Of a DNA stretch of 64,000 bases, positions 7,632 to 58,712 are shown one piece after another. This DNA is from Lysobacterales bacterium (lineage in GTDB: Bacteria; Pseudomonadota; Gammaproteobacteria; Xanthomonadales; Xanthomonadaceae): the NCBI GenBank assembly GCA_020442465.1, contig JAGRJY010000160.1:124001-188000 (forward strand). Reading direction: 5' to 3'. Below the pieces are notes generated by a model that saw only the letters and a list, made by a program, of their open reading frames with translations, was not told the origin of the DNA and made no database searches. Numbering within the stretch: the stretch's first letter is position 1; each line of letters opens with the position of its first letter. A program made the translations under genes and the position numbers.

Positions 7632-8267
7632 TCAGCGCGCGCGCGCAGACCTTCGCGTGCGGCGTCGCGGTACCGCGGTTTGCAGGTCGAGGGTGACCCG
7701 GGTGACGCCCGGTTCATCATGGCGGTGGCTGCGCCGGAAGCCCAAGCGTGAGGCGAGTGCCAGCATGGCAAGGTTGTCGTCGAGCACGTCGCCGTAGAGC
7801 ACGTCGAGCCGCTTGAGCTTGGCCCAGCGGATCACGCGACGCATCAGCAGCTCACCCAGCCCCTGACGGCCGAGAAAGCGCGACACCAGAACCGCGAACT
7901 CGGCTTTTTTCTGGTCCGGATCGATCGAGGCGCGTACCACGGCGCCCACCAGGGCCTCGCCCGGTGGCAGATCTTCGGCCACGACGAGGGCGAACTCGCG
8001 ATCCCGATGCGGGCGTGCAAGTTGCCCGGACGCCTGCTCGGTGAGCTCGCGCAGTGGATGCAGGAAGCGAAATCGAACTTCTTCGGGCGAGAGCAGCTCG
8101 AACCCGATCTGCAGTGCGCGGGCGTCCTCGGGCTCGATCGGCCGCAAGATCAATTGACGTCCGTCGTCGAGCAGCAGGCGCTCGCGCCACGCACCCGGCA
8201 GTCCTTCCCGACGCACATTTTGCTTGGGCATCGTGGCCATCCAGCGATGGACTCGATCATGAAGCAT
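7632..8267 (-). CDS. GNAT-family N-acetyltransferase
   Basis: Protein of about 211 residues with a GNAT fold across roughly residues 35-190. Visible parts are the N-terminal strand RQLILRPIEPEDA, a core stretch KAEFAVLVSRFLGRQGLGELLM (acetyl-CoA loop QGLGELL) and DNLAMLALASRLGF. The layout resembles the acetyltransferase domain of the Pat/YfiQ protein acyltransferases, but the acyl-CoA synthetase-like domain is absent. The substrate is therefore unknown. ATG codons at 8240 and 8231 are alternative starts, since the first ten residues carry no conserved sequence. The C-terminus is a basic tail rich in arginine. Confidence 0.8.
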   Translation of the reverse strand: MLHDRVHRWMATMPKQNVRREGLPGAWRERLLLDDGRQLILRPIEPEDARALQIGFELLSPEEVRFRFLHPLRELTEQASGQLARPHRDREFALVVAEDLPPGEALVGAVVRASIDPDQKKAEFAVLVSRFLGRQGLGELLMRRVIRWAKLKRLDVLYGDVLDDNLAMLALASRLGFRRSHRHDEPGVTRVTLDLQTAVPRRRTRRSARAR

Positions 8268-8433
8268 GGGCGCACGTTCGCACGCCGCGACCGAGCAGTT
8301 GCTCTAGAAACCGAACCATTCCGTCCCGTCACTGAACGACCCTTCAGTGCCCGTGTGGCAGGCGGAGATGCATTCATGCCGTACACCGTTCACTATGCAG
8401 CAAGCGCTCGACGCTCCGGCGGTGGGAGGTCCG

Positions 8434-8835
8434 ATGCACGACGATGTGCTGCTGCGGCTCGCGGGGCGTTGGCCGGGGGTGACGGCCGACGTGAAATGGG
8501 ACGTCGACAGGGTGCTGTCGGTGGCGGGCAAGATGTTCTGCGCGTTGGCGCTCGAGGGGCCCAAGAAGGGACAGCTCAGTTTCAAGGTCGATCCCGATCG
8601 CTTTCTCGAGTACACCGACCGACCCGGCATCCATCCCGCGGCCTATCTGGCCCGGGCCCACTGGGTGAGCGTGGCGCCGCTGTCGCAGCCGGGCGAACCG
8701 GAAATCGCGGGCTGGCTGGCCGAATCCTATGCATTGGTCGCATCCAAGCTGCCGGCGAAGGTGCGTCGGGAACTCGGCCTGGCCCATGCCGCGGGGGACA
8801 TTGTTCGGTCCTTGTCCGGCAAACAGAACGACTAG
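8434..8835 (+). CDS. MmcQ/YjbR-family protein
   Basis: Small protein of 133 residues with the CyaY-like YjbR fold. Visible family features are GKMFCALALE, the KVDP strand and PAAYLARAHWVSV, then a C-terminal helix containing SYALVASKLP. The family has been linked to DNA binding, but its physiological role is not established. The start at 8434 is chosen because GGAGG lies 5 bp upstream. The open frame extends further upstream without conserved content. It converges on the VOC gene. Confidence 0.8.
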   Translation: MHDDVLLRLAGRWPGVTADVKWDVDRVLSVAGKMFCALALEGPKKGQLSFKVDPDRFLEYTDRPGIHPAAYLARAHWVSVAPLSQPGEPEIAGWLAESYALVASKLPAKVRRELGLAHAAGDIVRSLSGKQND

Positions 8836-8868
8836 TGCCGGCGCACAGCCCTGCTTGCTGATGCAGGT

Positions 8869-9273
8869 TCAGTCGGTGCCGGCGTCGGCCTGTTCAGGAA
8901 ACTGCGCAAACGTCACGACGTGGCCAGCCGGATCGGTGACCGCGAACTCCGTTGAACCGTAGAAGGTTTGCCGCTTCGGAAACACGCCTGGGGCGTCGCC
9001 TACCGCGCGATGCACGGCGTCGAGGTCGTCGACCTTGATGAACAGCAGGGTTCTGCTGCCCTCGGCGGCGTCGGCCAGCGCCGCGGCATCTTCGCGCAGC
9101 GATGCCCGGGTCTGGTACATGAGCTGGGTCTGGCCGTCGTCGAGGATGGCGAAGCCAAGCACCTCGCCGTGCGGCACGCTGACGGCGACGCTGAAACCCA
9201 GGCGCGACCAGAAGGCGACCACGGGTTCGATGGCCTCACACGGCAGCACGGGCGTGATGGATGCAATGAGCAC
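8869..9273 (-). CDS. VOC/glyoxalase-bleomycin-resistance superfamily protein
   Basis: A protein of 134 residues built of two beta-alpha-beta-beta-beta units: the first contains AFWSRLGFSVAVSV, the second LLFIKVDDLDAVHRAV and TEFAVTDPAGHVVTFAQF. The His and Glu positions typical of metal-binding VOC proteins are plausible in the second half. The specific substrate cannot be told. The GTG start at 9273 is preferred because GAGGAG lies 7 bp upstream. The frame continues upstream only into the antisense of the Slp gene. Confidence 0.8.
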   Translation of the reverse strand: MLIASITPVLPCEAIEPVVAFWSRLGFSVAVSVPHGEVLGFAILDDGQTQLMYQTRASLREDAAALADAAEGSRTLLFIKVDDLDAVHRAVGDAPGVFPKRQTFYGSTEFAVTDPAGHVVTFAQFPEQADAGTD

Positions 9274-51029: not shown

Positions 51030-52184
51030 ATGCGTAGCCCACAGCCCATCGAGATCGAGTGCAGCCCGGCCGAAGCGGAGACGCTGTGTCGGGATGGCGC
51101 CGTGCTGGTGGACATCCGCGAGGCTGCGGAACGCAGTGCAGGCTGGCCAGCCCCCGCACGCCACCTGGGCGGCACGGCCCTGCGGGAGTTTCTGGAGGCG
51201 CGGACACAGCAGGCCAGCCAAGTGCTGTTGGTCTGCGCGATGGGGCAGCGTTCGCTGCGCGCGGCCAATGCTTTGCGCGAGGCTGGATTCGATCAAGTGC
51301 GCTCGGTGCAGGGCGGCTTCGCCGCCTGGCGCGCCGCGGGTCTGCCTTGCGCGCGCGCCGAGGACGCGCTCGACGAACGTGGGACCGAGCGCTATGCACG
51401 CCACCTGCAGCTGCCGCAGGTCGGGCTCGACGGACAAAGACGCCTGCTCGCCGCGCGCGTGCTGGTGATCGGGGCTGGGGGGCTCGGTTCTCCGGCCCTG
51501 TACTACCTCGCCGCGGCAGGCGTCGGAACGCTGGGCTTCGTCGACGACGATCGCGTCGACCGCAGCAATCTGCAACGGCAGATTCTGCATGCCGATGCGC
51601 GGGTCGGGACACCCAAGGTGGAGTCGGCGGCGGAGACCCTGGGCGGACTGAATCCCGACATCCGACTGGTGCCGCACGCTCTTCGACTGGACGAGCACAA
51701 CGTCGATGCCTTGATCGCCGACTACGACCTGATCGTCGACGGCAGTGACAATCTGCGCACGCGCTATCTGCTTTCCGACGCCTGTGTGCGGGGCGGGAAG
51801 GCCTGGGTGCACGCCGCCGTGCACCAGTTCGATGGTCAGGTCACGCTGTTTGCCGCCGGCGTGCGGCGCGGCGCGTCGCCATGCTACCGCTGTCTGTTTC
51901 CCGACCCGCCGGGCGCGGAGGCGATGCCCAACTGCGCGGAAGCCGGCGTACTAGGCGTGCTGCCCGGCATCATGGGACTGCTCCAGGCCACCGAGGCGGT
52001 GAAGTGGATCCTCGAACTCGGCGACGCGCTGGACGGCAGGCTGCTGTGCTTCGATGCGCTGTCGATGCGTTTTCGAGAGATCCGCGTGCGTCCCGATCCG
52101 GCCTGTCCCGCCTGCGGGCCCGAAAGGCGTGCGACGACACTTCCGCAAGCAGCCTGCCGCGTTTCAGGCGAGGCTTCGGACTGA
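51030..52184 (+). CDS. Rhodanese-ThiF/MoeB fusion sulfur-carrier adenylyltransferase
   Basis: E1-like protein of 384 residues. An N-terminal rhodanese domain (about 5-105) has the active cysteine Cys69 in VCAMGQRS. A ThiF/MoeB domain follows, with GAGGLG at 148-153 and the adenylating SNLQRQILH motif. The zinc cysteines are Cys285-x2-Cys288 and Cys359-x2-Cys362. The thioester cysteine region is NCAEAGVLGVLPG (Cys302). It activates the C-terminus of a sulfur carrier such as MoaD or ThiS and may load sulfur itself. Domain order is opposite to human MOCS3. Confidence 0.92.
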   Translation: MRSPQPIEIECSPAEAETLCRDGAVLVDIREAAERSAGWPAPARHLGGTALREFLEARTQQASQVLLVCAMGQRSLRAANALREAGFDQVRSVQGGFAAWRAAGLPCARAEDALDERGTERYARHLQLPQVGLDGQRRLLAARVLVIGAGGLGSPALYYLAAAGVGTLGFVDDDRVDRSNLQRQILHADARVGTPKVESAAETLGGLNPDIRLVPHALRLDEHNVDALIADYDLIVDGSDNLRTRYLLSDACVRGGKAWVHAAVHQFDGQVTLFAAGVRRGASPCYRCLFPDPPGAEAMPNCAEAGVLGVLPGIMGLLQATEAVKWILELGDALDGRLLCFDALSMRFREIRVRPDPACPACGPERRATTLPQAACRVSGEASD

Positions 52185-52215
52185 CCGGCGAGGCAGGCAT
52201 GGGAGAGAGGCGGGA

Positions 52216-52244
52216 TTCGGAATGGCGCCCGATTCCCGCATAAT
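52216..52244 (+). promoter_or_regulatory. Putative folD promoter
   Basis: TTCGGA (3/6) and CATAAT (5/6) are separated by 17 bp; the -10 ends 35 bp before the folD ATG. The -35 is weak. Confidence 0.4.
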
Positions 52245-52279
52245 GCGCCCCTTTCCCACCGTTTCGAGGCTTGAACCGC

Positions 52280-53158
52280 ATGACGGCGCGACTGCTTGAC
52301 GGCAAACGCATCGCCGATGAGCTGATCGAAGATCTCCGCGTGCAGGTGGAACTGATGGTGCAGGCCGGCGAATCGCCGCCCGGGCTGGCCGTCGTGCTGG
52401 TGGGCGATGATCCGGCCTCAGCGGTCTACGTCCGCAACAAGCGACGTGCGGTGGAACGCATCGGATTTCGCTCCTTCGATCACGACCTGCCGGCATCGAC
52501 CAGTGAAGAGTCCCTGCGCACGCTGATCGACCGTCTCAATGCCGACCCGAGTGTGCACGGCATCCTCGTCCAGCTGCCGCTGCCAGCACACGTCAACGCG
52601 CAGAATCTGCTCGACCGGATTGATCCGGACAAGGACGTCGACGGTTTTCATCCGACCAATGTCGGGCGTCTGGCCCTGCGGCAACTCGGCCTGCGTCCTT
52701 GCACGCCGCGCGGCATCACCACGCTGCTCGGTCACACCGACAGGCCGGTGCGCGGTCAGCATGCCGTGGTGGTCGGCGTGAGCAACCACGTGGGCAGGCC
52801 GATGGTGATGGAACTGCTGATCGCCGGGTGCACCACGACTGCCTGTCACAAGTTCACGCCATCCTCCGAGCTGAAGGCACAGATCGAACGGGCGGATATC
52901 GTGGTGGTGGCGGTGGGCAGACCGGGCATCGTTCCCGGCGAATGGATCAAGCCCGGCGCCGTGGTCATCGACGTCGGCATCAATCGTCTGGAAGACGGGC
53001 GCCTGGTCGGAGACGTCGGATTCGAGGCCGCGCGTTCGCGTGCTTCCTGGATCACCCCGGTGCCGGGTGGCGTCGGGCCGATGACGGTGGCGACGCTGAT
53101 GCAGAACACCATCGATGCGGCGCGGCGTGCCCGAACGAACACGCCGGCGTTGACCTGA
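52280..53158 (+). CDS. folD: Methylenetetrahydrofolate dehydrogenase / cyclohydrolase FolD
   Basis: Bifunctional folate enzyme of 292 residues. The catalytic lysine lies in [13 protein letters not shown]. The signature [12 protein letters not shown] and the C-terminal [16 protein letters not shown] are complete. [10 protein letters not shown] replaces the commonest GRSxIVGxP string at the NADP site, a slight departure. A TTG three codons upstream is possible. The TRAP lipoprotein gene begins 4 bp after its stop, so folD probably leads that operon. Confidence 0.96.
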
Positions 53159-53162
53159 GCAC

Positions 53163-54020
53163 ATGAGCAAGCGATCCATTCGGCGCATGGGATGGCGACT
53201 GGCGGTGCTGTTCGCCGTCGGCCTTTCTGCCTGTTCCAGCGTAGGGACGCGGCTGGGTGACGATCTGGCCTCGGGCATCGCCAACCACGACGATCCGCGT
53301 ACCGTGGCCGAAGCCTTGCCGGCCTATCTGGTGCTGCTCGACGGCTTGCTCAGCTCGCGGCCCGACAATGCGTCCATGCTGCGCGCGGCGGCCGATCTGT
53401 ACGGCCTGTATGCAGGCAGCTTTGCGGTCGAACCGGAGCGGTCGCGTCAGCTGAGCGACCGGGCATGGCGCTATGCCCGCGCTGCCGCCTGCGCCACGCA
53501 GCGCGATTGGTGCACCGCGCTGGACGGCCCGGTCGATGCATTCGTCGAGGTGATCGCCGGCGCCGATCAGGACGAAGTGCCTCAGCTGTTCAATCTGGCC
53601 GCTGCCTGGACCACCTACATCCGCGCGCATGGCGACGACTTTCGGGCCATCGCGGCGCTGCCCAAGGCGCAGGCGTTGATCGTGCGCGTCACCGAGCTCG
53701 ACCCGGACTACCGCGACGGCATGCCATTCGTCTATCTGGGCGTGCTGCACTCGCTGCGTCCGGCGGCGCTGGGTGGACGGCCGGATCTGGGGCTCGAAGC
53801 CTTCCAGCGCGCCATTGCGGCGTCGAACGGTACCAACCTGATGGCGATGACCCTTCAGGCCGAGTTTCATGCGCGTCTGGTATTCGATCGCGAAGAGCAC
53901 GACGCACTGATCGATCGTGTGCTCGCCTCGGAGGCGCAGGCGCCGGGCATGACCCTGTCGAACGTGCTGGCCAAGCGGCGCGCGCAGGAACTGAAGGACG
54001 AAGCTGATGACTATTTCTGA
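53163..54020 (+). CDS. TatT-type TRAP-associated TPR lipoprotein
   Basis: Lipoprotein of 285 residues with lipobox LSAC (Cys24). The body is all helical with degenerate TPR units (ALPAYLVLLDGLLSSRPDNASML, AWRYARAAACATQRDWCTAL). This matches the TatT component family (Treponema Tp0956), which forms a periplasmic complex with a TRAP solute-binding protein. It is directly upstream of dctP-, dctQ- and dctM-type genes and overlaps dctP by 14 bp, which makes the assignment strong. The ligand of such systems is not settled; hydrophobic molecules have been proposed. Confidence 0.9.
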   Translation: MSKRSIRRMGWRLAVLFAVGLSACSSVGTRLGDDLASGIANHDDPRTVAEALPAYLVLLDGLLSSRPDNASMLRAAADLYGLYAGSFAVEPERSRQLSDRAWRYARAAACATQRDWCTALDGPVDAFVEVIAGADQDEVPQLFNLAAAWTTYIRAHGDDFRAIAALPKAQALIVRVTELDPDYRDGMPFVYLGVLHSLRPAALGGRPDLGLEAFQRAIAASNGTNLMAMTLQAEFHARLVFDREEHDALIDRVLASEAQAPGMTLSNVLAKRRAQELKDEADDYF

Positions 54021-55038
54021 GCGGCCCCGGCGATTCGGACCGCAGCTGCTGGCAGCAATGTTGTGGCTGGCGGTCGCTGCCGCAGGGCCGGCCTGTGCGC
54101 AGACGATCAAGGTGGCCACCTTGGCACCCGAGGGGTCGGGATGGATGACCCAGATGCGTGCCGCAGCCAAGGCCTCGGAGGAGCGCACCGAGGGCCGGGT
54201 GACGTTCAAGTTCTATCCCGGCGGCGTGATGGGCAACGATGCCATCGTGCTGCGCAAGATTCGCCTGGGGCAGCTGCAAGGCAGCGCGTTCACCGGTTCC
54301 GAGGCAAGCACGATCTATCCCAGCGCCCAGCTGTATAGCCTGCCGTTTCTGTTTCGCGAGCGCGGCGAGGTCGATGCCGTGCGCGCGGCCTTCGACGACA
54401 AGCTTCGCGCCGGCTTCGAAGCCAAGGGTTTTCAGGTGCTGTCGATCAGCGGCGTCGGCTTCGCACTGATGATGTCCAAGTCGGATATCGCCCAGCGTGC
54501 AGCCCTGCAGCAGCGCAAGGTGTGGGTGCCGAACAACGACCTGATCGCCGAGCGCACGTTTCGCGGCGGTGGCATCACGCCGATTCCGCTGCCGTTGGCC
54601 GATGTGTTCACTGCCTTGCAGACCGGGCTGATCGATACCGTGGCCAATACGCCGGCCGGGGCCGTGGCACTGCAGTGGCACGGTTCGCTGCGTCAGGTGC
54701 TGGACCTGCCGCTCAGCTACGTGATCGGCTACGTACTCGTGGATCGACGCAGCTGGTCCAAGCTCTCGCCAGCGGATCAGGCGGCCGTGCTCGCAGCATT
54801 CGCGTCGAGCAGCGAGCTGATCGATCGGGGCAACCGCGAATCCGACCAGCAGGCACTCGAGGCCATGCTCTCGATGGGTACCAAGCTGGTCAAGCCCGAT
54901 GCCCAGGAAGTGACGGCGTGGGAAGGCGTGGGAAGAGACATCGTCGACACCCTGGTCGCGGAGGATCGGCTCGATGCGTCGCTGGTGTCGGGCGTGCGCT
55001 CGCTGCTCGCCGAGCGACGCACGCGCTCCGATCACTGA
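54007..55038 (+). CDS. TRAP transporter solute-binding protein (DctP/TatP family)
   Basis: Periplasmic binding protein of 343 residues with a signal peptide ending near residue 31 (ACAQ). The start of the mature part, IKVATLAPEGSGWMTQMR, and RVTFKFYPGGVMGND are typical of the DctP7-type subgroup. YSLPFLFRERGEVDAVR and the DTVANTPAG stretch lie in the ligand-cleft region. The usual conserved cleft arginine for carboxylate binding is not evident to me at this alignment level. It works with the TatT lipoprotein and the membrane QM subunits downstream. Confidence 0.92.
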   Translation: MTISERPRRFGPQLLAAMLWLAVAAAGPACAQTIKVATLAPEGSGWMTQMRAAAKASEERTEGRVTFKFYPGGVMGNDAIVLRKIRLGQLQGSAFTGSEASTIYPSAQLYSLPFLFRERGEVDAVRAAFDDKLRAGFEAKGFQVLSISGVGFALMMSKSDIAQRAALQQRKVWVPNNDLIAERTFRGGGITPIPLPLADVFTALQTGLIDTVANTPAGAVALQWHGSLRQVLDLPLSYVIGYVLVDRRSWSKLSPADQAAVLAAFASSSELIDRGNRESDQQALEAMLSMGTKLVKPDAQEVTAWEGVGRDIVDTLVAEDRLDASLVSGVRSLLAERRTRSDH

Positions 55039-55041
55039 TCG

Positions 55042-55584
55042 ATGGCAACTTCGACCGGCAGCAGTCGACTGCGCCGCGCGCATCGGCTGCTGACGCGCGT
55101 TGAAGACGGGCTGCTCGCCACGCTTCTGCTCAGCCTGACCCTGATTGCCGGTGCCCAGGTCGTGCGCCGCAATCTGTTCAACGAAGCCTGGATCCATGCG
55201 GATACGTTTGGGCGGGCGTTGGTGCTGTGGATTGCGATGCTCGGCGCCTGGTCGGCGGTGCGTTCGGGCCAGCACGTCGCCATCGATTTTCTCAGCCGCA
55301 CCGTAGGCCCCGGCTGGCAGCGCGCCATGCGCGGCGTGACGGCCCTGTTCGCGGCCATATTCTGTGCCGGCATGGCATGGCTGAGCTATACCCTGATCGT
55401 GCTCGATGTCGAATCCGCCATGGAGTGGATTCCGGGCGTTTCCGTGGCCTGGCCGTTCGGTATCGTGCCGGTGGGATTCGCGCTCATGGCGTTCCGTTTC
55501 CTGTTCAGCGTGGCGGTGCCGCCGCCCCTGCCGGGGCAATCGTCCACGGCTCGTGCCGCCTCCGATGGCAGCGGAGCGGACTGA
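55042..55584 (+). CDS. TRAP transporter small permease (DctQ)
   Basis: Inner-membrane protein of 180 residues with four TM helices, at about residues 24-42, 58-75, 99-118 and 138-160. The motif DTFGRALVLWIAMLGAW and the GQHVAIDFL stretch are DctQ hallmarks. It lies 3 bp after dctP. It couples with DctM to form the sodium-driven transporter. Confidence 0.93.
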   Translation: MATSTGSSRLRRAHRLLTRVEDGLLATLLLSLTLIAGAQVVRRNLFNEAWIHADTFGRALVLWIAMLGAWSAVRSGQHVAIDFLSRTVGPGWQRAMRGVTALFAAIFCAGMAWLSYTLIVLDVESAMEWIPGVSVAWPFGIVPVGFALMAFRFLFSVAVPPPLPGQSSTARAASDGSGAD

Positions 55585-55589
55585 ACAGC

Positions 55590-56855
55590 ATGTTCGTCTG
55601 GCTGCTTGTCGTGATGGCCGTGCTGGGGGCGCCGCTGTTCGTGCTGCTTGGTGGCGCGGCCATGCTCGGCTTCCACGCGATCGACTATGACCCGGCGATC
55701 GTCGCGGCCGAGTTCCAGCGGATCGGGCAGATGCCCGGCCTGGAGGCCATCCCGCTGTTCGCGTTGGCGGGCTACCTGCTCGGCGCCGGGCAGGGACCGA
55801 AGCGGCTGGTTGAGGTGTCCGAGGCGTGGCTGGGCTGGCTGCCGGGTGGATTGGCCGTGGTGGCGGTGGTCAGCTGTGCGCTGTTTACCGCCTTCACCGG
55901 CGCCTCCGGCGTCACCATCGTTGCGCTGGGTGGCCTGCTGTATCCGGCCATGCTCAGCGCAGGCTATCCGCGGCCGTTCGTACTCGGCCTGCTCACCGCC
56001 GCGGGCAGCCTCGGGCTGTTGTTTGCGCCTTCGCTGCCGTTGATCCTGTACGGCTTCGTCGCCGCACAGATGGGCAGCCAGCCGCCGGTGGCGGTGGCCG
56101 ACCTGTTCTGGGCCGGACTGTTGCCGGGCACGCTGATGGTCGTTGTGCTCGCGGCGTTGTGCATGCGCCAGGGCTGGAAGCTGCCCCGCGGCGAGCAGTT
56201 CTCGCTGGCGCGCGGACTGGCAGCCATTCGTGGCGCCGCCTGGGAGCTGCCGCTGCCTGTGCTGGTCCTGGGCGCCATCTTCTCCGGCTGGCTTGCCGTG
56301 TCCGAGGCCGCAGCGATGACGGCGTGCTACGTGCTGGCGGTGACCTGCGTGATCCGTCGCGAGTTGAGCTGGCGCCAGTTCATCGATGCGGCGTCCGACG
56401 CCGCGCGCATGGTCGGTGTGTTGCTGATCGTGCTGGGCATGGCGCTGGCGCTGTCGAACTTCATGATTGATCAGGAAGTGCCGGCACGGCTGTTCGACTG
56501 GGTCAGCCGGCACGTCGACAAGCCCTGGCTGTTCCTGCTCTGTCTCAACGTGTTCCTGCTGCTGGTCGGCATGCTGCTGGATATCTTTTCGGCCATCGTG
56601 ATCCTGGTGCCGATCCTGCTGCCGCTGGCGCAAGGATTCGGCATTCACCCGGTGCACCTCGGCATCGTCATGCTCGCCAACCTGCAGCTCGGCTACTTCA
56701 CTCCACCGGTCGGCATGAACCTGTTCATTGCCAGCTTCCGCTTTGGCGAGCCCGTGCTCTCGCTGGTACGCCACAGTTGGCCATTCCTGCTCGCCTTGCT
56801 CGCCTGCTTGCTGGCGATCACCTGGCTGCCCTGGCTGAGCCTCGCGCCGTTGTAG
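55590..56855 (+). CDS. TRAP transporter large permease (DctM)
   Basis: Polytopic protein of 421 residues with about 12 TM helices. Family strings are IPLFALAGYLLG, FTAFTGASGVTIVALGGLLYP, and the C-terminal GIHPVHLGIVMLANLQLGYFTPPVGMNLF. It is the substrate-translocating subunit. ATG 55590 is 5 bp after dctQ. The operon ends here, converging on the sulfatase gene. Confidence 0.95.
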   Translation: MFVWLLVVMAVLGAPLFVLLGGAAMLGFHAIDYDPAIVAAEFQRIGQMPGLEAIPLFALAGYLLGAGQGPKRLVEVSEAWLGWLPGGLAVVAVVSCALFTAFTGASGVTIVALGGLLYPAMLSAGYPRPFVLGLLTAAGSLGLLFAPSLPLILYGFVAAQMGSQPPVAVADLFWAGLLPGTLMVVVLAALCMRQGWKLPRGEQFSLARGLAAIRGAAWELPLPVLVLGAIFSGWLAVSEAAAMTACYVLAVTCVIRRELSWRQFIDAASDAARMVGVLLIVLGMALALSNFMIDQEVPARLFDWVSRHVDKPWLFLLCLNVFLLLVGMLLDIFSAIVILVPILLPLAQGFGIHPVHLGIVMLANLQLGYFTPPVGMNLFIASFRFGEPVLSLVRHSWPFLLALLACLLAITWLPWLSLAPL

Positions 56856-56867
56856 CGGGGCACGGAT

Positions 56868-58712
56868 TCAATCCTGCGGATCGGCGGCGCGCTCGCGGTC
56901 GTAGCCGAGCAGCCCCCACAGGTATTCGAGGCGGTTTGCCCGAACCGGGCCGCGATCGATGCGATCGAGGCTCCAGGCAGCAAGCAGCTCGTCTGCATAC
57001 GGGGGAGGCACATCCTCCCAGCGCGTGTCGTCGCCATCCAGCACCAGCCTGCCTTGGCCGCGGGCGCTGAAAACCTGAACCTGCTCACGATTCAGCCCGC
57101 TTGCGTGCGCGGTCACTTCCGCCGGCTGCGGCGGCTGCGCAAACAGCAGGCCCTGGGTCGGACTGATGCAGACCTCGGAATCGGCCAGCTGAAGTATCGA
57201 GGGCAGCAGGTCGGTGTGCTGGAAGCGACCCTCGATCGGCGCCGCGGGCGAACCCTCGGGGCCGATGATCACCATCGGCACGCGCGCGAAGGCGGTATCG
57301 CCGAAACGCGCACGTTCGCCCGGCTTGAGCGGCGTCATGCTGCGGTGGTCACCGCTGACGATCAGCATGCCGTGGCGGAAGAAGCCGCGTTCGGCCAAGG
57401 TGTCGTGAAACTGCTTGATCAGTGCGTCGACGTGACGAAAAGCACGCTCCTCGTCGAGCGTGCCGGTGCCCGGCACCACGAAGGGCGGGTGCGTGTGCAC
57501 GGTGAGGATGCCGGCAAAGAACGGGCGCGAATCCTGCCGGGCCGCGTGCCAGTCGAGCACCCGCCGGAGCAGGGCAGCATCCTCCGGCGCACCGAACTGG
57601 CCGCGCGGCAAGTCGCCGTACACGGGTGATTCGCCGCCCTCGGCGTAGTCGAATCCCAGCGCCGAAGACCATCGGTCCTTGCCGAGAAAGCCGAGCTCAC
57701 CGCCGGTGAAGAACAGCGTTTCGTAGCCGAGGCCGCGCATGCGTGCGTAGTAGTCGTCGGCTGCGTTCTCGAATCCGACGAACGCGTCGATGCTCGACAT
57801 ACGGTTGATGGCCGGAATGGGCACCCGCCCGTTGAACACGGAGATCAGTCCGCCGTCGGAATGGAAGCCGTTGGCGATGAAGGCGGGCACATAGCGATTC
57901 GCCCGGGCCAGCTCGTCGAGCTGCGGCGTGGCGTCCATGATGCCGGCGTGCAGATGGCTGTGATACGCAGACAGCGATTCGACCAGCAGAACGATCACGT
58001 CGGGCCGCTGCTGCTGCCCCTGAAGGCATGTCGAGGGCAGCGCCGGCGCGTTGCGCCAGGCGGCCACCTGGTCGGCGGAGTAGGGGCGATCCAGCGGTGC
58101 AGGGCGATTCACCTCGAGCACGTTCTGCCACGACTCGCCCAGCACGTAGTCGGGCTCGGGCACGGCGAAGCCCAGCAGCGGCAAAGCCAGCGCCGGCGCG
58201 AGCGCGGAGGCGAGCATCCGGTTCGAGGGACGACCGCCAACCAGGCAGGCCAGCAGCGCAGCGACGGGCGCCAGGACGGCGAGCAGCAGCAAGGCTGCAT
58301 CCGGCCACTGTCCGAGCAGATCGGCAGCGACGGTCCACGAATGCTTCGACTCGCCGGCAAAGCGCAGCACTTCCTGCAGGTACATGCGCTGATAGAGCAG
58401 GCGAAACACCACGGTGTCGATGGCCATCGCCGCAAGCAGAAGGACGGTCGGCAGGGCGATGAGTGCACGTCCGGCACGGGACCGCGGCAGCCTGCTGGCG
58501 AGCAGGAGCAAAGCCACGAGGCTGATGGGAGCCAGATCGTGGGCCAGTGAGGCCATGTGCAGGCAGCCGCTGCAGGCGGAGTACTCGGCGTACGAGCGCT
58601 CGACGAGCAGGGCGCGCCATCCCGCCAGGCCAGCGGCGCAGAGCAGGGTCAGGGCGCCGAGGGCGAACCAGAGGCGGGCGGGCCGATTGCCCGTCCGGGT
58701 GCTTGGGGACAT
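56868..58712 (-). CDS. LTA synthase-like membrane sulfatase-fold protein
   Basis: Protein of 614 residues with about five N-terminal TM helices (to about residue 215) and a periplasmic alkaline-phosphatase/sulfatase domain. The nucleophile region is VIVLLVESLSAYHS, and metal-binding strings are LIVSGDHRSM and VHTHPPF. The fold resembles lipoteichoic acid synthases and MdoB/phosphoethanolamine-type transferases. In a Gram-negative the product is more likely a phosphoglycerol or phosphoethanolamine decoration of glycan or lipid; this is inference. The start is uncertain: ATG 58712 lacks a clear ribosome site, and the open frame continues left into the antisense of guaB. Confidence 0.82.
   Translation of the reverse strand: MSPSTRTGNRPARLWFALGALTLLCAAGLAGWRALLVERSYAEYSACSGCLHMASLAHDLAPISLVALLLLASRLPRSRAGRALIALPTVLLLAAMAIDTVVFRLLYQRMYLQEVLRFAGESKHSWTVAADLLGQWPDAALLLLAVLAPVAALLACLVGGRPSNRMLASALAPALALPLLGFAVPEPDYVLGESWQNVLEVNRPAPLDRPYSADQVAAWRNAPALPSTCLQGQQQRPDVIVLLVESLSAYHSHLHAGIMDATPQLDELARANRYVPAFIANGFHSDGGLISVFNGRVPIPAINRMSSIDAFVGFENAADDYYARMRGLGYETLFFTGGELGFLGKDRWSSALGFDYAEGGESPVYGDLPRGQFGAPEDAALLRRVLDWHAARQDSRPFFAGILTVHTHPPFVVPGTGTLDEERAFRHVDALIKQFHDTLAERGFFRHGMLIVSGDHRSMTPLKPGERARFGDTAFARVPMVIIGPEGSPAAPIEGRFQHTDLLPSILQLADSEVCISPTQGLLFAQPPQPAEVTAHASGLNREQVQVFSARGQGRLVLDGDDTRWEDVPPPYADELLAAWSLDRIDRGPVRANRLEYLWGLLGYDRERAADPQD

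Follow-up and report, generated by a model that had tools for sequence, protein, structure and literature searches.

The window, by which we mean the whole stretch of 64,000 nucleotides analysed (Lysobacterales bacterium, contig JAGRJY010000160.1, positions 124,001 to 188,000), carries at 53163-56855 a complete, ordinary operon for a transporter of the tetratricopeptide repeat (TPR)-protein-associated tripartite ATP-independent periplasmic (TRAP) type, or TPAT, a known but poorly understood uptake system. The four tat genes are intact and all lie on the + strand, and each of the encoded proteins exceeds the curated Pfam cut-off of its family:

53163-54020, + strand: tatT, 285 aa, TPR-like T-component and predicted lipoprotein (PF16811, TAtT, E 1.6e-61)
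54007-55038, + strand: tatP, 343 aa, DctP-type solute-binding protein (PF03480, E 2.4e-38)
55042-55584, + strand: tatQ, 180 aa, small membrane subunit (DctQ, PF04290, E 5.3e-23)
55590-56855, + strand: tatM, 421 aa, large membrane subunit (DctM, PF06808, E 5e-82)

A sequence-only reading of the same DNA had claimed a complete TPAT transporter encoded by four overlapping or closely spaced genes, and both statements were confirmed: the four families are all present, the first two genes share 14 bp, tatQ begins 3 bp after tatP, and tatM 5 bp after tatQ. The ATG of tatM is at 55590, the mechanically called open reading frame (55227-56855) being over-extended. In NCBIfam, TRAP_S1 (4.4e-86) and dctM (TIGR00786, 7.9e-106) were both found above cut-off, and TatT gave no match. 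The assembly to which the window belongs, 89% complete, holds a single TatT, a second DctP that is a fragment at a contig edge and, besides weaker DctM matches, one more that is full-length and lies on a different contig.

To the operon we assign, with a probability of roughly 70%, the function of an ion-driven secondary importer of the TRAP family that is supplemented by a TPR lipoprotein, in which a hydrophobic ligand is relayed from TatT to TatP and then to TatQM. TatT, lipid-anchored at the periplasmic side of the outer membrane, would accept in its pore a ligand that is hydrophobic or long and aliphatic; TatP, as a soluble protein, would dock on TatT and receive the ligand in a cleft in which a Trp replaces the carboxylate-binding Arg; TatP would then carry the ligand to the TatQ-TatM permease, which would import it with a cation. 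We infer the docking of the two proteins, the TatT trimer, the ion coupling and the direction of import by analogy, from the reviewed work on Treponema pallidum and from the TRAP family, and the outer-membrane location and the hydrophobic ligand from the protein sequences described below.

TPAT was first described in T. pallidum, with structures in 2012, according to the portion of the review used here (PMC5812351), which leaves the ligand open; that the ligand is unresolved had been stated by the sequence-only reading as well. Its assignment of the system to the Treponema type also holds, since TatT matches Tp0956 by family, by profile and by predicted fold. The sequence match between the two proteins was weak (8e-6), and the profile match was clear (3.1e-20). 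A profile search with TatP likewise matched Tp0957 (3u65, 4.2e-27), which ranked ninth among many TRAP binding proteins. The predicted model of TatT (predicted local distance difference test, pLDDT, 96.2) has the Tp0956 fold: it superposed on 4di3_A with a Z of 27.9 and a root-mean-square deviation of 2.3 over 252 residues, on 3u64 with a Z of 27.6 and on 8g52 with a Z of 25.8, the next match after the TPAT structures being an unrelated general TPR protein (Z 19.8), and Foldseek matched it to the Tp0956 fold with an E of 1.1e-9. The entries 8g52 and 8g53 (‘bacterial TPAT family transporter’, PDB, 2023) belong to the TatT family (profile E 3.3e-22), 8g52 sharing about 22% identity with the window TatT; no accompanying paper was found for them in our literature search.

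The T. pallidum system (Tp0956, Tp0957 and TatQM) resembles that of the window in the family and fold of TatT, in the DctP-type partner devoid of the arginine and in the TRAP permease. The differences, as far as the excerpts of the two papers go, are that the T. pallidum permease is encoded by one dctQM gene instead of tatQ and tatM and its TatP is a lipoprotein, whereas the window TatP has a cleavable-type signal peptide (PMC5812351), and that the arginine site is occupied by Ala in Tp0957 (PMC4646407) and by Trp in the window protein. Moreover, a pair of cysteines, Cys110 and Cys117, is present in 122 of 134 TatT, and Tp0956 has no such pair at the corresponding positions; it could possibly form a disulfide. 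We found no description in the literature searched of the near-invariant Trp, of the Cys pair or of the folD site discussed below; the original 2012 papers were outside this search, and these features may be in print.

The ligand site of TatP separates the system from classical DctPQM transporters (SiaPQM and others), which share with it the DctP, DctQ and DctM families and the binding-protein fold, but have no TatT and use an arginine as selectivity filter. This arginine is found in 96.8% of 6142 TRAP binding proteins and is required for carboxylate specificity, as reported in the sections of the two papers at hand (PMC5812351; PMC4646407). In the window TatP, an arginine equivalent to SiaP Arg147 is not present, its place, in a predicted strand, being taken by Trp173 (KVWVP). 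The site was compared in 132 TatP, a set that was length-filtered and included the window's own protein, as did the 134 TatT mentioned above, and in 30 classical TRAP controls, the best-scoring DctP loci of the same class and thus biased to typical members, 27 of which were aligned directly and three (L229, L249 and L251) read separately. All 30 controls have Arg. The TatP have Trp in 130 cases and Phe in 2, a split that varies with the alignment (128 and 4 when the controls are aligned together with them), and Trp is also present in 79/79 TatP from named genomes, the open-ended L277 having been excluded from the 80 of that set. Other columns nearby lost their charged residues: Lys/Arg at position 153 in 23/27 controls is mostly Ala in TatP, Glu at 213 in 27/27 is mostly Ala, Gly or Met, and His at 236 in 23/27 is mostly Leu or Val. 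Several conserved TatP columns in which the controls differ hold aromatic or aliphatic residues (F95, W173 and L236) that may line the cleft, and the comparison leans toward a hydrophobic one.

These data bear on whether the operon is a classical carboxylate transporter, importing an organic acid, with the TPR protein as an incidental accessory. TatP, TatQ and TatM do fall in classical Pfam families, and the predicted model of TatP (pLDDT 94.6) adopts the fold of TRAP binding proteins and aligns with binders of dicarboxylates and sugar acids at a Z near 34. However, a dicarboxylate is disfavoured because both the arginine gripping the carboxylate and the nearby charged columns are lost, and we regard this explanation as quite unlikely. 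The site rather fits the published model of a hydrophobic ligand, without naming it: in the available text, Tp0957 is reported to have a hydrophobic pocket with Ala at the arginine site (PMC4646407), and for the TPAT proteins a hydrophobic TatT pore and TatP cleft are described and a lipid relay from the outer to the inner membrane is proposed (PMC5812351). The near-invariant Trp together with the lost Arg offers a sharp mutational handle to distinguish hydrophobic from carboxylate cargo.

Phe-type TatP were observed, in the alignment that includes the controls, at the loci L119, L147, L221 and L224. The L119 protein matches Tp0957 better (1.7e-32) than does the window TatP (8.6e-15), so that, judged by these scores, the class holds at least two TatP types.

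As for the cellular location of the two proteins, the window TatT shows the lipobox LSAC, with Cys24 followed by Ser at +2, and is therewith predicted to be a lipoprotein. Among the TatT of 108 loci of the order, the lipobox was read by rule in 96, with Ala (71), Ser (17) or Gly (8) at +2 and Asp in none; in ten of the remaining 12 a Cys not followed by Asp can be recognised by eye, and two are cut. Asp is absent at +2 also in 66 of 78 TatT read in the named set. An Asp following the lipobox Cys bears on whether a lipoprotein is sorted to the outer or to the inner membrane, and TatT is probably anchored at the outer one. TatP, with an AxA-type site in 92/132 sequences and in 54/79 named ones, is probably soluble.

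Several observations weigh against the relay of a hydrophobic ligand as proposed here. Asp at +2 is rare also in other lipoprotein-like proteins of the same loci (just 2/46), and the +2 residue thus lends weak support to outer-membrane sorting. The rule for signal peptides found neither type of site in 29/132 TatP and 23/79 named ones, and a lipobox in 11/132 and 2/79, although most of the 11 flagged sequences have, by eye, the Cys within the signal core and a later AxA-like site. In the fold search with TatP, many classical binding proteins scored as high as Tp0957 or higher. No match to the squalene/hopene cyclase family (PF13249) was found in 32/32 genomes of the window's family, where a hopanoid made by the cell itself is an unlikely ligand. 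Finally, loss of the arginine does not necessarily lead to a hydrophobic cargo, as the arginine-free TRAP protein Csal_0678 binds the small polar ethanolamine (Fischer et al., PMC4646407). By this precedent the cargo could be a small uncharged or cationic polar compound, such as an amine or a polyol; the passage reporting it, however, mentions no TatT partner for Csal_0678, and several of the conserved columns that set TatP apart from the controls are aromatic or aliphatic. We judge a polar cargo unlikely.

A lipid ligand for a member of the TatT superfamily has been reported in the section consulted of PMC10942540 for BstC (7t1s), an outer-membrane-associated sterol-binding protein of Methylococcus capsulatus. 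The window TatT matched BstC with a Z of 18.3, the sequence match being partial and marginal (E 0.026). The partners differ: BstC acts with BstA and BstB and, according to the same section, no TRAP permeases, whereas those of the window TatT are DctP, DctQ and DctM.

A second, divergent TatT-family protein occurs in one family of the order, f9 (L109, L114, L115, L118, L153, L154 and L155). In L109 it is encoded at 7989-8954 on the - strand (PF16811, 2e-21), beside pdxJ and a response regulator, and no TRAP family was matched among the nine neighbouring frames scanned; by analogy with BstC, it is perhaps a TRAP-free TatT.

The distribution of TatT was examined in 398 genomes of the order and 369 of the class. 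Including weak matches, TatT was found in 108 and 92 of them, respectively, and strong TatT in 86 of the class genomes, which makes TPAT widespread in Gammaproteobacteria and accessible in cultivable relatives such as Arenimonas. The best 80 of at least 556 TatP relatives in named genomes come mostly from Lysobacterales and other Gammaproteobacteria; Desulfobacterota and Myxococcota contribute some. Of these 80 loci 78 also contain TatT, and the two others are truncated close to contig ends, TatP beginning 73 and 206 bp away from the limit of the sequence. Wide loci were taken from 158 stretches, 10 of which, having no tblastn match to the window's TatT, were dropped; L117, L149 and L150 were skipped beforehand, and 148 loci, window included, were analysed. 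In these, a simple gene caller that misses genes called TatT in 136, TatP in 134 and TatM in 137; since the loci were picked by the presence of TatT, they are informative only for the counts of P, Q and M. The tat genes travel and are inherited together.

TPAT might replace FadL in the uptake of long-chain fatty acids, an idea that came from 32 genomes. We scored genomes with strong TatT as TPAT-plus (104 in the order, 86 in the class) and those with weak or divergent TatT as TPAT-minus (G055, G099, G188 and G370 in the order, and likewise 6 in the class), and took FadL as present at PF03349 E ≤ 1e-30, weaker FadL-like matches (e.g., G000, G371, G270, G091) being scored absent. The exclusion appeared striking in the window's family, in which strong FadL was found in 0/12 TPAT-plus genomes versus 116/117 TPAT-minus ones, and was evident in the order (20 genomes with both, 84 with TPAT only, 222 with FadL only, 72 with neither; odds ratio 0.077, p 6e-24). 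However, in family f12 14/16 TPAT-plus genomes also have FadL, and across the class the association is absent (44 both, 42 TPAT only, 137 FadL only, 146 neither; odds ratio 1.12, p 0.71). The replacement was therefore rejected as very improbable, the exclusion seen in the order being best read as a clade effect. A FadL-family gene was observed within ~5 kb of a TatT gene in G552:C37 and G662:C25, both genomes of one genus.

A more speculative form of the hydrophobic relay is that proteobacterial TPATs are ion-driven retrograde lipid shuttles, the TRAP counterpart of Mla, in which outer-membrane TatT would extract a hydrophobic compound, soluble TatP, with the aromatic Trp in its ligand site, ferry it and TatQM import it; we consider this extension doubtful. 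Since many TPAT genomes are without strong FadL, the cargo of such a shuttle could possibly be a breakdown product of the cell's own membrane. MlaA is present in the genome of the window, where TPAT is therefore not a replacement for Mla.

The gene just upstream of the operon, a neighbour outside the transporter, is as follows:

52271-53158, + strand: folD (PRK10792, E 9.4e-136), listed from a TTG, the true start possibly lying a few codons further in

The sequence-only reading had left the link to folD as either a clue or a coincidence, and had proposed a survey of neighbours in other genomes as a check. The link turned out to be a conserved position, not a clue. folD lies directly upstream, on the same strand, in 50/108 loci of the order, window included, and in 12/12 TPAT loci of the window's family; it is in this position in 0/40 loci of other orders (one of which has no upstream gene called), nor in families f2, f4, f7 and some of f11 within the order, contig ends cutting some loci. 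In 6 of the 148 wide loci no upstream gene was called, and folD is within the stretch in 25/80 named loci. The pairwise distances of T, P and M track those of folD with Spearman coefficients of 0.83, 0.84 and 0.79 (n 43, 42 and 48), values reached by 0/500 permutations and near that between folD and der (0.87, n 23). The guaB side is less clean, since the coefficients are lower for folD-guaB (0.49, n 22) and M-guaB (0.50, n 21). Moreover, in 19 of 20 genomes of the window's family free of TatT, the start of guaB is no more than 500 bp from folD; the remaining stretch contains neither TatT nor guaB.

A role of TPAT in folate or one-carbon metabolism would be suggested by a probable co-transcription with folD: the gap between folD, which stops at 53158, and tatT is 4 bp in the window and has a median near 5 bp over the 50 loci (extrapolated, -55 to 137 bp), and no promoter-like site was found in 52000-57100, where 0.4 were expected by chance. 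The terminator scan gave 1 match versus 2.2 expected by chance. However, because the position is bound to the order and guaB is near folD in TatT-free genomes, folD marks an inherited position and not the ligand, and a folate function is hardly probable at all. The folD neighbourhood is the ancestral gene order in Lysobacterales, and the adjacency of folD and the tat genes reads as the outcome of vertical descent at a single site and of losses in many relatives. Outside the folD lineage the neighbours, named by eye from sequence, are mixed housekeeping genes with no functional theme or ligand clue, some of them recurring within f7.

Downstream of tatM, sulfatase and guaB genes are often found in the loci of the order. 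In the window, a sulfatase-family gene (PF00884; 56868-59189, - strand) lies between tatM and guaB; as listed, its reading frame overruns guaB, and the real start codon probably has a more internal position.

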